53,577 bases of DNA from Vineibacter terrae (lineage in GTDB: Bacteria > Pseudomonadota > Alphaproteobacteria > Reyranellales > Reyranellaceae). Position numbers and translations under genes: made by a program. Of the stretch, positions 6,284 to 27,449 are shown one piece after another. The stretch covers positions 1-53,577 of the forward strand of contig NZ_VDUZ01000060.1 in assembly GCF_008039615.1 (NCBI RefSeq). Direction: 5' to 3'. Position 1 is the first letter of the stretch. Each line of letters starts with the position of its first letter. The notes below the pieces were generated by a model, which had not been told where the DNA came from, did not search any database, and was given only the letters and a program-made list of their open reading frames with translations.

Positions 6284-7060
6284 CTACTCGTCTTCCTGCT
6301 TGCGCCGCTTGCGCACCTTCACGGCATACTCGCCGCGCGGCCGGTTCTCATCGTTCATCGGATTGACGATGGTGGCACGGAAACGGTCCCAATCGTCGTC
6401 CTTGAAATCCTCGAGCCTCTCGACGAGATCGAAATTCTCGGACACGCCGTCGGCATAGAGCCAGCGCGGAAACGGCTGCAGCTGCAGCAGCGGCACCTCG
6501 CTGCGGATATGGATCGGCGTGCCGGTGCGCGTCAGCCGCACATTGGTGAAGATCGGTCCGAACCAGCGGTCGGTCTCGATGATGCCTTCATAGGCCTCAT
6601 ATCCGGACGGGCGCGGGAAGTTGGCGAGAGGCCGCGCCAGCACGCTCCAGCCGGGGGCCGTCCGAGCGACGTAGCCGCTCCAGATCTGCAGCAGGCCGGG
6701 CTCGTTCGGCGCGCCCAGGAAGGGCAGCGCGAAACCGCGGCAATCCTCCGGCACCCGCTCATCGAAATAAGTGTCGAAGTCGGGATAGTGAGACTGGCCC
6801 AGGGGCAGCCATTGACCGCCCGCGCCCTCGTGGCTCCAGAACGTCTCGCGGCCGTCCCATAGCACCTGAAAATCCATCGGGGGAAACAGGTACCAGCCGA
6901 AGGCCGAGGCTGTCCGCATCGGCTCGCAATAGCGAAAGGCACGCGTTGGATAGGTCCCTCCCGCCGCCTGATCGGCCCGCAGAGGCGGCCGGGCATCCGG
7001 CAGCATCCGGTAGAACGTGATGAGAGGCTTGGGAATTTCCGGTTTGGCTGTCTTGCTCAT
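6284..7060 (-). CDS. Conserved protein resembling DUF6065
   Basis: Function unknown; 258 residues, no signal peptide or membrane span. Distinctive blocks are GTYPTRAFRYCEPM (residues ~36-49), SAFGWYLFPPMDFQVLWDG (~52-70), LQIWSGYVARTAPGWSV (~124-140) and GIIETDRWFGPIFTNVRLTR (~158-177). The order 'GW...WDG ... PGW ... IETDxxF' matches what I recall of DUF6065, but this is recognition from memory, not a search. The C-terminus is highly charged (KVRKRRKQEDE). It lies 197 bases downstream of the tandem-repeat peptide gene on the same strand, past a probable terminator, so it may be expressed by read-through. It is the only candidate enzyme next to that peptide. Start codon choice is fair; the ribosome site is weak (GGTAGAG). 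Confidence 0.72.
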   Translation of the reverse strand: MSKTAKPEIPKPLITFYRMLPDARPPLRADQAAGGTYPTRAFRYCEPMRTASAFGWYLFPPMDFQVLWDGRETFWSHEGAGGQWLPLGQSHYPDFDTYFDERVPEDCRGFALPFLGAPNEPGLLQIWSGYVARTAPGWSVLARPLANFPRPSGYEAYEGIIETDRWFGPIFTNVRLTRTGTPIHIRSEVPLLQLQPFPRWLYADGVSENFDLVERLEDFKDDDWDRFRATIVNPMNDENRPRGEYAVKVRKRRKQEDE

Positions 7061-7186
7061 GACTCTACCAACACAGGCACATCCGATCGGCCGACAAAGA
7101 CGGCTGGTTCGCGTAGTTCTCGCTCAGCCGCAAACGCCGATCAATTCGGTTTTGACCGAAACGTACTCGTCACACCGACGTCGACA

Positions 7187-7222
7187 CAAAAAAAGCAAGC
7201 GCAGCATCCCCGCCACGCTTGC
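7187..7222 (-). terminator. Rho-independent terminator of the repeat-peptide gene
   Basis: On the minus strand the stem GCAAGCG (7222-7216) and CGCTTGC (7201-7195) encloses a 14-nt loop and is followed by TTTTTTT (7194-7188). It lies 36 bases past the stop of the repeat gene and before the DUF6065-like gene, so the peptide is probably made from a short, possibly more abundant transcript, with the downstream gene reached by partial read-through or its own promoter. Confidence 0.8.
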
Positions 7223-7257
7223 CTCTCAAAAAAACTGGATGATTCGCTTGTTGCCGA

Positions 7258-7719
7258 TCAGAACGTCGGCGCCAGCATGCCCAGCTTCACCTTCTTCGCA
7301 CCGAAGGCCGGGGCCAGCATGCCCAGCTGCACCTTCTTCGCACCGAAGGCCGGGGCCAGCATGCCCAGCTGCACCTTCTTCGCGCCGAACGCCGGGGCCA
7401 GCATGCCCAGCTGCACCTTCTTCGCGCCGAAGGCCGGGGCCAGCATGCCCAGCTTCACCTTCTTCGCGCCGAAGGCCGGGGCCAGCATGCCCAGCTGCAC
7501 CTTCTTCGCGCCGAAGGCCGGGGCCAGCATGCCCAGCTTCACCTTCTTCGCGCCGAAGGCCGGAGCCAGCATGCCCAGCTGCACCTTCTTCGCGCCGAAG
7601 GCCGGAGCCAGCATGCCCAGCTTCACCTTCTTCGCACCGAACGACGGCGCGAGCATGCCAAGATTCACCTTCGACGTGCCGAAAGTGGGGGCAAGCATAC
7701 CAATGCGGACCTTAGTCAT
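7258..7719 (-). CDS. Tandem-repeat protein of eleven 14-residue units (KVxLGMLAPxFGxK)
   Basis: A 153-residue protein that, after Met-Thr, consists of ten complete 14-residue units and an eleventh ending at its stop (…LGMLAPTF). The consensus is K-V-(K/Q/R/N)-L-G-M-L-A-P-(A/S/T)-F-G-A-K. Coding on this strand is supported by a strong ribosome site (GAGGAGG, about 7 bases before the ATG), a downstream terminator, and divergent first, second and last units that keep GMLAPxF while varying at synonymous positions (GGT/GGC, CTT/CTC/CTG, GCC/GCG/GCT). Central units are nearly identical 42-bp DNA repeats, a sign of recent expansion; residue 3 mostly alternates K (AAG) and Q (CAG). There is no signal peptide and no cysteine. 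I recognise no family. A multi-core precursor peptide, a filament or solenoid, or an ice- or surface-binding repeat are all possible. Confidence 0.78.
   Translation of the reverse strand: MTKVRIGMLAPTFGTSKVNLGMLAPSFGAKKVKLGMLAPAFGAKKVQLGMLAPAFGAKKVKLGMLAPAFGAKKVQLGMLAPAFGAKKVKLGMLAPAFGAKKVQLGMLAPAFGAKKVQLGMLAPAFGAKKVQLGMLAPAFGAKKVKLGMLAPTF
7264..7713. repeat. Array of 42-bp direct repeats (about 10.8 copies)
   Basis: Eleven head-to-tail 42-bp units make up the repeat gene, with no spacers. Central units differ at only a few positions: GCA/GCG and GGCC/GGAG synonymous sites, and one C/A base that switches Gln and Lys. The units next to the start codon and the final unit are the most diverged, the usual gradient for an array growing by slippage or unequal exchange in its middle. 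Copy number could vary between strains and could be miscounted by short-read assembly. Confidence 0.95.
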
Positions 7720-7927
7720 TTTTGCATCCTCCTCATAAGACCTCGGCTTGAGGGGCGACCGGCTGCGACTGGCAACCGGGGCGACCCGCCCCGCGAACCG
7801 ACCCGCATCAACCCCGATGCGGTGCGTGAGCAGAATGTGTTCTGAGTGACGAAAGCTCCGTTAATCGATCGCGAACGATCTGCGAAAAAAGGCAATCCAA
7901 CAACTTAGGCTCACTTCCTGAACTGTC
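7720..7927 (-). promoter_or_regulatory. Structured leader/upstream region of the repeat-peptide gene
   Basis: This 208-base gap lies between the stop of the BTAD regulator and the repeat-peptide start. It contains a 7-bp hairpin (CCGCATC 7803-7809 with GATGCGG 7816-7822), several G+C-rich inverted segments around 7757-7800 and a less G+C-rich stretch at 7850-7910. The ribosome site GAGGAGG sits at about 7727-7733. A promoter with a structured leader, or an operator for the adjacent regulator, is plausible. I could not fix a -10/-35 pair. Confidence 0.4.
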
Positions 7928-9958
7928 CTAGTGCTCAGAGAGGCCAGCCATTCGCAGACCAATCACATAACGCTCACGGTCCTCAGGCCTCTCAAGCGGC
8001 GTGATTGTTTCGAACATTTTGATGGAGAATCCGGGCTGTACCGCCAGGAGCTGACGTGAAAGATTACGCGCCTCGTCACCCCGTCCCAAATAGGCGAGAC
8101 TGACGATGACAGGAACATACACCGCCATGAAGTTAGGATGCTCACGCAGGATCGGCTGGGCCGCCACGACTGCATCCTGATATCGACCAGCGAGCGTCAG
8201 CGAGATCACTGTCACCGTTTCCCAGAAGTAACGGAAGTTGTCGAACGGCGAGAGCGTGCGATAGCGCTCCATGCGCTCCAACGCATCAAGCGGACGGCCG
8301 CGATAGCAGGCGACGGCCGCGCTCAGTGCCCAGCCGAGGCCAAAGTTGGGATTCACCGTCAGCGAACGTTCGTGAAAGTGCTCGGCAAGATCGTAGTTGT
8401 GCCGCAGAAACGCCTCGACATGGGCCGCGAACGACAACCCCATCGGATCGTCGGGATCAAGCTCTATCGAGGCATGTGCATGACGCTCGGCAGCGGCGTC
8501 ACTCTTCTCACGATCAGTCAGCCACCCCTGGCCGACTCCCATCAGATGCCAGAACGCCATCCAGGCGTGGGCATGCGCATATCCAGGATCCAGCCGCAGC
8601 GCACGTTCCAGAAACTCACCTGCGGTTCGGAACGCAGTTGGCGACGCTTGGTAGATGAGCGGCACAGCGCGCAGCATGCAGTCATAGGCGTTCGCGTTGT
8701 CGGGCGGGCGGCGCCGGACCCGGTCAATCTCGGCCTGCAGGATCTTGGGATTGAGCTGCCCCACGATGCCCCGGACGATCTCGTCCTGCACATCGAACAA
8801 CCGCACGAACTCCACGGTCCGCTGATCGGTCCACAGCGCTCGCGCGTCTTCGCAATCGACCAACCGCACACCGATCCGGACGACGCCGCCCTGACGACGC
8901 ACAGTGCCCTCAATTGCGTAGCGGACATTGAGGCGTCGCCCAATGTCCCGTGGGTCCACATCCTGGCCTCTGAAAACACCTGACGAGGCGCCCGGGATCA
9001 CCGACAACCATTTGAAGCGGGATAGGCCGTTGACGATGTCCTCCGCAAAGCCTTCGCCGAGATACTCCTGCTCCGGATCGCCACCGACATTGCGGAATGG
9101 CAGCACGGCGACGGGCAGTGTCTCGATCTGCCCCTCGGCCACCGCCGGAGCCGGCTTGACGGCAGCGCCGACGGCAGCTGCGGGCGGCGGCGCGGCCGTC
9201 GGCATCGCCGTCTGCAGCTCCGGCATGGGCGTGTCCAGCCGGTCGGCACGGATGCGCTCGTAGAGCTGGATCGTGGGCTGGCCCGGCTTGGCGTCCAGCG
9301 TGCGCTTGAGGGCATCGACGCAGACCTGGAACTGGCGCAGGGCTGCCGCCTTGTCGCCGCTGCGCGCGAAGGCCTCCATCAGGCCGCGATGCGCCTCCTC
9401 GTGCGACGGCTCCAGCGCCAGCATATGGCGCGCGATGGCTTCGGCCGCCGGCAGGTCGCGCAGCACGATCAGCTCGCGCATCGCTGCAGCCATGCCGCCG
9501 AATGCCTGCTCGCGGCGCCAGGCGCGCTCGCCGTACAGCCAGTCCTGAAACGCTCCGCCGATCGCCGACAGGTCAGCCAGCAGATCGCCGCGATACAGCT
9601 CGGGAATCCGCCGCTTCTCCTCCAGCGGCCCGTCCGCCATGCGCTCGACCTCGCGGGCATCGATCCACACCTGGTCGAGATTCACCCGCATCACGTCGCG
9701 ATCGATATGCAGCGCACCGGCATCGCCGTCGCGGAACAAGGCCCGCAGCTCGGTGATCGCCTGGCGCAGCGAGCCGCGCGCCTGCTCCTCCAGGCGGTCG
9801 CTCCAGACCAGGCCGGCGACACGCTCGCGGGTCGCCGACGCATCGGGTGTCAACGCCAGGAAGGCGAGCACGGCGCGGGTCTTCTTCGCCCGTGGCGTTC
9901 CGTCGGAACCATCCGAAAGGGTCACCCGACAGCCGCCCAGCAGGTAAATCCGTAGCAT
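7928..9958 (-). CDS. BTAD-type transcriptional activator with TolB-like and TPR domains
   Basis: A 676-residue regulator of the SARP/BTAD kind found in alphaproteobacteria. Domains: an OmpR-like winged helix at residues ~1-100 (MLRIYLLGGCRVTLSDGSDG at the start), a bacterial transcriptional activator domain ~105-245, an Ala/Pro linker ~250-280, a TolB-N/adenylate-cyclase-associated domain ~285-400 (PVAVLPFRNVGGDPEQEYLG, then FAEDIVNGLSRFKWLSVI), and TPR-like helices to the end. It probably binds DNA and senses a signal through the C-terminal half. It is directly upstream of the repeat-peptide and DUF6065-like genes on the same strand, which makes it their likely regulator. A clear sigma70-type promoter is at 10025-10053. 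Codon usage in the C-terminal third looks less G+C-rich than its neighbours. Confidence 0.88.
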   Translation of the reverse strand: MLRIYLLGGCRVTLSDGSDGTPRAKKTRAVLAFLALTPDASATRERVAGLVWSDRLEEQARGSLRQAITELRALFRDGDAGALHIDRDVMRVNLDQVWIDAREVERMADGPLEEKRRIPELYRGDLLADLSAIGGAFQDWLYGERAWRREQAFGGMAAAMRELIVLRDLPAAEAIARHMLALEPSHEEAHRGLMEAFARSGDKAAALRQFQVCVDALKRTLDAKPGQPTIQLYERIRADRLDTPMPELQTAMPTAAPPPAAAVGAAVKPAPAVAEGQIETLPVAVLPFRNVGGDPEQEYLGEGFAEDIVNGLSRFKWLSVIPGASSGVFRGQDVDPRDIGRRLNVRYAIEGTVRRQGGVVRIGVRLVDCEDARALWTDQRTVEFVRLFDVQDEIVRGIVGQLNPKILQAEIDRVRRRPPDNANAYDCMLRAVPLIYQASPTAFRTAGEFLERALRLDPGYAHAHAWMAFWHLMGVGQGWLTDREKSDAAAERHAHASIELDPDDPMGLSFAAHVEAFLRHNYDLAEHFHERSLTVNPNFGLGWALSAAVACYRGRPLDALERMERYRTLSPFDNFRYFWETVTVISLTLAGRYQDAVVAAQPILREHPNFMAVYVPVIVSLAYLGRGDEARNLSRQLLAVQPGFSIKMFETITPLERPEDRERYVIGLRMAGLSEH

Positions 9959-10024: not shown

Positions 10025-10053
10025 GTTATAAGGCACTGTTTTATATCGGTCAA
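10025..10053 (-). promoter_or_regulatory. Sigma70-like promoter of the BTAD regulator gene
   Basis: On the minus strand TTGACC (10053-10048), a 17-base spacer and TATAAC (10030-10025) form a near-consensus promoter. Transcription would start near 10018, giving a leader of about 60 bases before the ATG at 9958. The surrounding 9960-10080 stretch is notably A+T-rich. Confidence 0.65.
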
Positions 10054-26444: not shown

Positions 26445-27449
26445 TCAGCGCAGGTCGCGCGGATCGAACTTGAACACGAAGCGCTTGAGCTGCTCGTATT
26501 TGTGCTGCGGATAGGGCAGCGGCTGGCAGCGCGGGTTGAGCACCGCGCGCTGGCCTGCTTCCGCATACGACCGCAGGAACGGATTGGCCGCCATCGCCGA
26601 GCGTGTCTCGTCGGAGATGCGGGCCTCGGTGACCCGCCCGTCGGGCGCCATGTCGACGATGATGTAGGCGATCAGCTGCGAGGCATCGCGGCCGCCGTCG
26701 TTGACCGACCAGCACGGCCGCACCTTGTCGGCCATGGCGGCGTTCTCGCTGGCGGTCAGCCGGCCGGCCGCCAACGCCGACTGCTGCGTGCGCGTTCCCG
26801 GCACGTTGGGCCGGCCCTCGCCGGCCACCGGCTGCGGCGGCCGCGGCGAGCGGCTGGTCTGCTCGGCCAGGATCTGGTCCAGCGTCTTGGGCGGCGCCTT
26901 TGGCGGCTCGGGTTTCCTGGTCTCGGTCTTCGGCGGCTCCGGCTTGGGCGGCTCGGGCTTCTTGGCCTCAGGCTTGGGCGGCTCGGGCTTGGTTTCGGGC
27001 TTGCGCTCGACGGCCGGCTCCGGCTTGGGCTTCAGCGGCTCGGCGTCCGGCTCCTTGGGCTTCTCGGCCTTGGGCTCCGGCTTGGGCGCGGGCTTCTCCT
27101 CGGGCTTGGGCTGGACGGCGGCGACCTGCGGCTCCGGCTTGGGCTGCGGCTTGGGATCGGGCTGCGGCTTGGGCGCGGCCTCGACCTGCGGCGCCGGCGG
27201 CGCCGGCGTGTTCTTCTCGGCCTCGGGCAGCTTGCGGTCCTGCGGCCGCTCCTGCGACACCACCGGCGCCTTGGATTGCGGCCCGATCTCGGTGGCGTCG
27301 TAGATCGGCACGTCGGCCAGCGAATCGTCGGGCGGCCGCGTCAAATTCGGGAAGCCGAACAGGGCAGCGGCCAGCAGAACGACATGCGCCCCGGCCGAGA
27401 CCACGGCCGGGGTTGTCATGTCGCCGCTGGAGTCGCCACGCCAGCGCAT
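26445..27449 (-). CDS. tolA: TolA-like cell envelope integrity protein
   Basis: Inner-membrane protein of 334 residues bridging TolQR to the outer membrane. One N-terminal span (~residues 12-35, TTPAVVSAGAHVVLLAAALF) is followed by a Pro/Lys/Glu-rich stalk (~60-200, many KPEP and PKPE repeats) and a C-terminal TonB/TolA-like domain (~240-334) with VNDGGRDASQLIAYIIVDMA and LRSYAEAGQRAVLNPRCQPL. Its place between tolR and tolB confirms the call. The stalk is low-complexity DNA (GGGCTTGGG repeats). Confidence 0.95.
   Translation of the reverse strand: MRWRGDSSGDMTTPAVVSAGAHVVLLAAALFGFPNLTRPPDDSLADVPIYDATEIGPQSKAPVVSQERPQDRKLPEAEKNTPAPPAPQVEAAPKPQPDPKPQPKPEPQVAAVQPKPEEKPAPKPEPKAEKPKEPDAEPLKPKPEPAVERKPETKPEPPKPEAKKPEPPKPEPPKTETRKPEPPKAPPKTLDQILAEQTSRSPRPPQPVAGEGRPNVPGTRTQQSALAAGRLTASENAAMADKVRPCWSVNDGGRDASQLIAYIIVDMAPDGRVTEARISDETRSAMAANPFLRSYAEAGQRAVLNPRCQPLPYPQHKYEQLKRFVFKFDPRDLR

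Follow-up and report, generated by a model that had tools for sequence, protein, structure and literature searches.

Gene clusters for ribosomally synthesised and post-translationally modified peptides (RiPPs) that use multicore precursors hold a short precursor gene with tandemly repeated cores, an adjacent enzyme gene, a regulator gene and, sometimes, a transporter gene. We analysed a stretch of 53,577 nucleotides from Vineibacter terrae (contig NZ_VDUZ01000060.1, positions 1 to 53,577 of the forward strand; referred to as the window), in which three genes on the minus strand encode a 153-residue peptide built of 11 repeated units (7258..7719), a 258-residue protein of the DUF6065 family (6284..7060) and a 676-residue BTAD/TPR transcription regulator (7928..9958). 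The peptide and DUF6065 genes co-occur across many bacterial families, and we give close to an even chance to the reading that the window locus is one copy of a recurring multicore-precursor system with a DUF6065 partner, a regulator and a peptide-derived product. Like multicore RiPP clusters, the locus has a short precursor gene with a strong ribosome site and a terminator, units in which a kept part and a lineage-specific core are repeated in tandem, and an adjacent candidate enzyme and regulator, joined in some relatives by a transporter. Unlike those clusters, it holds no enzyme of a known RiPP class, and its partner is a DUF6065 protein with a predicted dUTPase fold; 21 array-protein N-termini showed no conserved separate leader, and modification of the peptide is something we infer.

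Two further kinds of system bear comparison. AfsR/SARP-type BTAD regulators are cluster-situated activators in Streptomyces; the window regulator shares their BTAD domain but is alphaproteobacterial and has a TolB-like and TPR C-terminal half. That half is weakly similar (15.9 bits) to TIGR04510 of NCBIfam, named 'putative peptide modification system cyclase', but the score lies far under the 400-bit cut-off and the regulator is not a member. In the RRNPPA signalling systems of Bacillota, tandem propeptides are known and are secreted (PMC11343458). The window locus resembles the quorum-sensing systems described there in having a TPR-bearing regulator adjoining a gene for a peptide of repeated units, and differs from them in being proteobacterial, in its BTAD regulator and DUF6065 partner, in its larger number of units and in the lack of a clear secretion signal. 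The word DUF6065 was not found in the literature searched, which mostly left subscription papers outside; searches on multicore RiPPs, on RiPPs in these bacteria and on the dUTPase-like fold with peptide binding gave no title on a system of array and DUF6065 protein among the matches listed.

Results

The repeat peptide is kept at the protein level

The array at 7261..7710 (minus strand) has a 42-base period, with a Tandem Repeats Finder score of 689 against 145 for the next row elsewhere in the window. Its translation reads as ten units of exactly 14 residues, followed by a final unit of 10 residues that reaches the stop and ends in GMLAPTF. The unit is (K)V-x-L-G-M-L-A-P-x-F-G-x-x-K, with GMLAPxF as its core. 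The first unit encodes this core with different codons, and in 30 units from four genomes the ratio of nonsynonymous to synonymous change (pN/pS) of the GMxxPxF core was 0.11 within arrays and 0.23 between genomes; for the three residues preceding the core the ratios were 0.63 and 0.31, respectively. The array is therefore coding, and the protein sequence is what selection keeps. Long open reading frames (ORFs) over the array on the opposite strand (7277-7738 and 7017-7715, plus strand) arise from the repeat together with the high G+C. A Pfam match of the repeat protein to HIF-1 (27.9 bits, cut-off 27) was taken as spurious, being a sum over repeats of which no stretch passes alone, as was a CysA_C_terminal match of the array at L086 (31.8 against a cut-off of 29.7), which is made of summed small repeat matches. 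NCBIfam gave the repeat protein sub-cut-off matches only, and PADLOC none.

The signals around the peptide gene were those that an earlier reading of the window from its letters and ORFs (the sequence-only reading) had proposed, along with the three genes, whose coordinates and lengths were confirmed. An AGGAGG ribosome-binding site (7728..7733, minus strand, read from the sequence) ends 8 bases 5' of the ATG. After the peptide stop, between the peptide and DUF6065 genes, lies a hairpin with a U-run (7190..7227, minus strand), whose folding energy of -24.7 kcal/mol (z -3.35) was equalled by none of 200 shuffles, although it is listed neither by a simple scanner nor under a stricter stem-loop rule. 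Transcripts should therefore often end before the DUF6065 gene. Under the stricter rule, hairpin-plus-T sites between the two genes were found in 27 of 62 loci (61 relatives and the window, which is not among the 27), against 5.2 in shuffles, an excess as expected if the precursor is needed in excess.

Peptide and DUF6065 genes recur together

A scan of named genomes gave 176 DUF6065 relatives, and the best 80 of these 176 were used for all counts out of 80 below. Their hosts, which include many soil and water bacteria, are mostly Acetobacteraceae, Roseomonadaceae, Elioraeaceae and other alphaproteobacterial metagenome-assembled genomes (MAGs), with Sneathiella, Hyphomicrobiales and a few records labelled betaproteobacteria. 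In 68 of the 80 loci, an array or a peptide of one or two units is encoded immediately 5' of DUF6065 on its strand, one of these being a unit cut by the contig end; 63 rows were flagged at first, L109 and L111 were removed as spurious, and L147, L106, L114, L115, L120, L122 and the partial unit of L132 were added. Three loci (L090, L133 and L134) have less than 160 bases 5' of the DUF6065 gene and could not be judged. Eight of the other nine testable loci (L081, L098, L109, L111, L127, L135, L141 and L142) have an array elsewhere in the genome. The neighbour clusters present in most loci were DUF6065, regulator and array. The contig starts less than 800 bases before the DUF6065 gene in 26 of 80 loci, often within the array, and unit counts are therefore lower bounds. 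Contigs begin within arrays at L085, L088, L092, L112 and L146, for example, and short-read assemblies hide or truncate array genes.

For co-occurrence, 385 genomes of the host's class were searched for the DUF6065 clade of the window, which scores at least 348 bits against at most 38.8 for other DUF6065 matches, and then for arrays. The clade was found in five genomes, all five of which have an array. Of the other 380, a single genome gave an array; it is an 82% complete MAG whose array, a two-unit peptide, stands about 100 bases short of the contig end. Fisher's test for the link gave 9e-11, assuming an independence of genomes that does not hold. The array search itself hit four of the five genomes; for the fifth, the window genome, 8 of 36 candidates were scored, and its known array was not among these.

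Closer to the window, peptide, DUF6065 and regulator genes were present in all four genomes examined from the same genus. A second genus (G001, with the regulator frame split into two ORFs) and three genomes of a third (G002, G003 and G005) also have them, with units that read differently (MGGLSPLFGETVDVE, MGGMSPLFVEAVEVE). No DUF6065 match was found in G004 of the third genus. The fourth and largest genus of the family gave no array with the window peptide as query, and a few DUF6065 proteins of the other kind. A second locus in G073 combines a 29-residue unit containing RVKVGGMQPTF with a DUF6065 protein and two regulator genes, the complete one of which has BTAD. A weak array match on contig C20 of the window genome showed nothing on inspection, and long, weakly array-like ORFs of G017 and G073 were set aside on length alone. 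One Hyphomicrobiales MAG (L216, L217 and L218) carries at least four peptide genes with different cores, spread over three loci that have regulators, with DUF6065 elsewhere (L135).

The claim of the sequence-only reading that these genes form a system is thus strongly supported. The repeat protein does occur without the other two genes at the level of the locus (L213, L214 and L215, the last cut by a contig end), yet those genomes carry DUF6065 elsewhere.

Units combine a kept motif with a lineage-specific core

Unit statistics were taken over 72 arrays, comprising 67 of the 68 above and those of the window, L165, L166, L174 and L175 (L165 and L166 shortened). The consensus was D-[AS]-G-[KRT]-[VI]-R-[LM]-G-[GA]-x-[AS]-[PR]-x-[LF]. 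In 69 distinct units, the G at position 0 is invariant and V-R-L has an entropy of 0.5-1.3 bits, against 2.1-2.8 bits at core positions 2, 3 and 5. The six residues after VRLG take 43 forms, GFAPTL, NMSPAF, GLQRAI, AIARTL and SVFRLP among them. A unit is thus a kept VRLG, usually with a preceding D-x-G-K, plus a lineage-specific core, as in DAGKVRLGGFAPTL. Arrays reach 19 counted units; at the other extreme are single-unit peptides of about 30 residues (L106, L114, L115 and L120), and two-unit forms also exist. The repeat period differs between loci, from 14 up to 30 residues, and some arrays combine more than one period. The core type tracks the DUF6065 tree: over 68 labelled rows, core position 4 changes five times, where shuffling gives 16.8 on average.

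The DUF6065 protein has a predicted dUTPase-like fold

The window protein scores 51.4 bits against Pfam PF19541 (cut-off 26.6), which bears out the DUF6065-like label given by the sequence-only reading, and nine DUF6065 proteins of the window's group share 72% mean column identity. An AlphaFold2 (AF2) model had a predicted local distance difference test score (pLDDT) of 88.9, and its fold matches in the PDB were dUTPases. This assignment of a dUTPase-like fold rests on the predicted structure, because the profile alignment between DUF6065 and 12 dUTPases was not significant (probability 0.36, E 0.17; 13 controls gave 0.04-0.42). The DUF6065 profile matched no PDB sequence below E 0.7. Unlike members of the dUTPase family (PF00692), the protein has degenerate catalytic motifs: RPLAN, GIIETDRWFG and LLQ stand in aligned register with PRSG, GxIDxxYxG and IAQ of dUTPases (reference motifs taken from host enzymes), with the glutamine kept, and the C-terminal arm motif RGxGGFGSTG is absent from the sequence. 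The window genome has an ordinary dUTPase elsewhere.

A phage origin was considered and set aside: a search of 50,697 phage records gave nothing, and PHROG a weak match (E 0.001); against predicted viral structures, the best matches of the model were uncharacterised phage proteins (E 5.7e-10). Fusions occur in distant DUF6065 proteins (L037:5234-6847 and L151:4084-5733), with a 2OG-Fe(II) oxygenase domain and with SapC as the partners.

The regulator is linked to the peptide but separable from DUF6065

The sequence-only reading had described the regulator as BTAD/TolB/TPR. Its BTAD (PF03704, 61.5 bits, cut-off 22.1; 1.5e-16) and TPR_19 (32.7 bits, cut-off 25; 9.4e-8) parts stand, whereas the TolB part, at 13 of 22.4 bits, falls below the Pfam cut-off, as does an N-terminal OmpR-like Trans_reg_C part (20.3 of 26.2). 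The near-consensus promoter that had also been noted, TTGACC-17-TATAAC 5' of the regulator gene (10025..10053, minus strand), was confirmed by eye with 10 of 12 consensus bases, though it is unlisted by a scanner that demands T at the last -10 position.

Of the 80 loci, 36 have a homologue close to DUF6065 that covers the BTAD half, placed in one of four ways: 18 of these genes are downstream and convergent, 8 are upstream and divergent, and of those that share the DUF6065 strand 7 are upstream and 3 downstream. This count leaves out three more loci that match the TPR half alone, namely L078 and L147, where BTAD is absent by Pfam, and L122, where the gene is cut. Over these 39 loci and the window, the DUF6065 tree needs five changes of arrangement, compared with 18.7 on average after shuffling. 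Where flanks were ample (3.5 kb or more upstream, 4.5 kb or more downstream), the regulator was present in 16 of 30 loci. Among 11 array loci away from DUF6065, a set that excludes L168 and L170 because contig ends cut their arrays, 8 carry the regulator next to the array (divergent at L169, L171, L174, L176, L217, L218 and L220, convergent at L216); the stretches of L213, L214 and L215 hold neither regulator nor DUF6065. BTAD was above cut-off also in the neighbours of L031, L169 and L174, and not in those of L078 and L147. Both proteins are thus linked to the peptide, and each can be apart from it. The regulator has many relatives, with 19 other matches in the window genome, and no array was found near its paralogues at three inspected loci. 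The gene beside the array at L078 (4362-6149), which has the TPR half without BTAD, encodes an N-terminal half that is adenylate-cyclase-like by eye.

Transporters and other neighbouring genes

The sequence-only reading had found no exporter; this holds for the window locus, while a minority of relatives have EamA or major facilitator superfamily (MFS) transporters. A transporter of one cluster lies downstream of DUF6065 in 5 of 80 loci and is EamA by Pfam in the two scanned; its gene and that of DUF6065 share 4 bases in two Roseomonas and 1 base in a Rhizobacter MAG. On plasmid pSRDI969_1 of the pea-associated Rhizobium sp. SRDI969 (L202:5556-7862), genes for a three-unit peptide, DUF6065 and an MFS transporter stand in a row. 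There the hypothetical protein upstream of DUF6065 contains three units such as DDGKVHIANKSPAF, and the DUF6065 and MFS genes overlap by 4 bases. A related plasmid of strain WSM4643 (L203) has two hypothetical ORFs where the transporter would be. As two unrelated transporter families are tied to the DUF6065 gene, they suggest a small exported product.

Within about 3 kb upstream of DUF6065 and in its orientation, 13 of 80 loci (L082, L077, L093 and ten more) have a gene of one cluster, which Pfam identifies in L082 as a TldD-type metallopeptidase; TldD/E act on some RiPPs. An SGNH/NonGDSL hydrolase cluster (by Pfam in L121) lies directly 3' of DUF6065 in 11 of 80 loci (L121, L082, L132 and eight more), and a glutamate-cysteine ligase, named by eye, is near DUF6065 in 10 loci. 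None of the three was taken as part of the system; they resemble housekeeping genes or clade synteny. In the window, the flanking genes encode IlvD, a binding protein, a CBS protein and GlmM (named by eye, the CBS protein via Pfam). They look like ordinary metabolism and are not conserved beside array and DUF6065 across the wider family. Further tandem repeats at 26898-27198 of the window have periods of 12-57 bases and are GGCTCCGGCTTG-like.

Discussion

A RiPP-like reading fits most of these facts. The repeat gene would encode a precursor in which each unit pairs a recognition part (D-x-G-K-V-R-L-G in most lineages, KVxLG in the window) with a lineage-specific core, GMLAPAF in the window. 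The precursor would be made in excess relative to the next gene, because a terminator separates the two. The DUF6065 protein, predicted to have a dUTPase fold with changed active-site motifs, may bind each unit by its kept part and act on or carry the core, and the BTAD/TPR regulator would turn on the peptide gene. The output would most likely be a small peptide-derived product, which some lineages may export through a transporter (MFS or EamA) encoded in overlap with DUF6065. The sequence-only reading had likewise proposed a modified peptide; the kept part and lineage-specific core are such as a multicore precursor could have, and the DUF6065 protein is its putative modifier. The larger claim, that Proteobacteria have a new class of ribosomal multicore peptides that need a dUTPase-fold protein to mature, with 1 to about 19 recognition-plus-core cassettes per array and a core diversified between lineages along with its DUF6065 partner, we put forward tentatively, as rather doubtful. 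We know of no case of the dUTPase fold as a peptide-tailoring enzyme.

Several observations weigh against this RiPP-like reading. As in a RiPP, the array encodes a precursor with kept and variable parts, but the division is graded and not sharp: core positions 4 and 6 are fairly conserved (1.35 and 1.67 bits), and positions -8, -6 and -5 on the recognition side are as variable as the core (2.0-2.5 bits). The agreement of core type with the DUF6065 tree fits both coevolution and plain shared descent, which alone could equally produce it. The dUTPase catalytic motifs are mostly not kept, and the profile comparison with dUTPases was not significant. No Pfam, NCBIfam or PADLOC match among the three window genes was to a modifying enzyme of a named RiPP class, as the sequence-only reading had held, and no known dedicated protease was found. 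The BTAD regulator was not nearby in 14 of the 30 loci with ample flanks, and a transporter is found in a minority of loci and is absent from that of the window. Finally, the L101 genome has DUF6065 with a weak array match (E 0.008) in which nothing was recognised on inspection.

In a rival reading, the units would be released and exported, and the regulator would sense them through its TPR part, with DUF6065 aiding maturation; the locus would then encode a multi-copy propeptide of an RRNPPA-like signalling system. In favour of this, the regulator adjoins eight of the eleven arrays without DUF6065 nearby, divergently in seven, and of the 36 BTAD regulators near DUF6065, 8 are upstream and divergent; tandem propeptides are also known in RRNPPA systems of Bacillota (PMC11343458). 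However, a secretion signal is not clear, since 2 of 21 array-protein N-termini exceed a 12-residue mean hydropathy of 2, and the many relatives of the regulator in the window genome stand without arrays at the three loci inspected. Phr propeptides appear to have far fewer units than the 19 reached here, and we consider peptide signalling unlikely. It is also rather unlikely, in our estimate, that the repeat protein is itself the final product, a multivalent ligand or scaffold whose units bind many DUF6065 proteins and cluster, inhibit or complete them. The close co-occurrence and the lack of a further enzyme kept in most loci agree with a scaffold, and units such as VRLGGFAPTL dimly recall the dUTPase arm RGxGGFGSTG that DUF6065 lacks, although this likeness is by eye only; single-unit peptides of about 30 residues and transporter genes overlapping DUF6065 in two lineages speak against it.

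A folded repeat protein, for example a small structural beta-solenoid, appears improbable. The best AF2 model of the array shows two short strands per unit, but with a mean pLDDT of 61.1 (five models, 61.1 to 32.5), and the 14- to 30-residue periods, mixed in some arrays, argue against a rigid solenoid, as do the one- and two-unit forms. Tandem DNA repeats arise easily, and the contigs of many relatives start in or near the array (the 26 of 80 noted above); a chance or non-coding repeat among ordinary neighbours is nevertheless a reading that we hold refuted, with hardly any probability left to it, by the core pN/pS of 0.11, by the same unit logic in different sequence in many families and by the co-occurrence of array and DUF6065 in the class sample.

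If the DUF6065 protein does modify or mature the units, these genes would represent a class of bacterial peptide products still to be mined, with members in Acetobacteraceae, Roseomonas, Rhodopila, Elioraea, Sneathiella, Reyranella and their relatives. Such a class is easily overlooked because assemblies break at the arrays and no meaningful family model fits them. The dUTPase fold would gain a new job, and a branch of DUF6065 would thereby be given a testable function.

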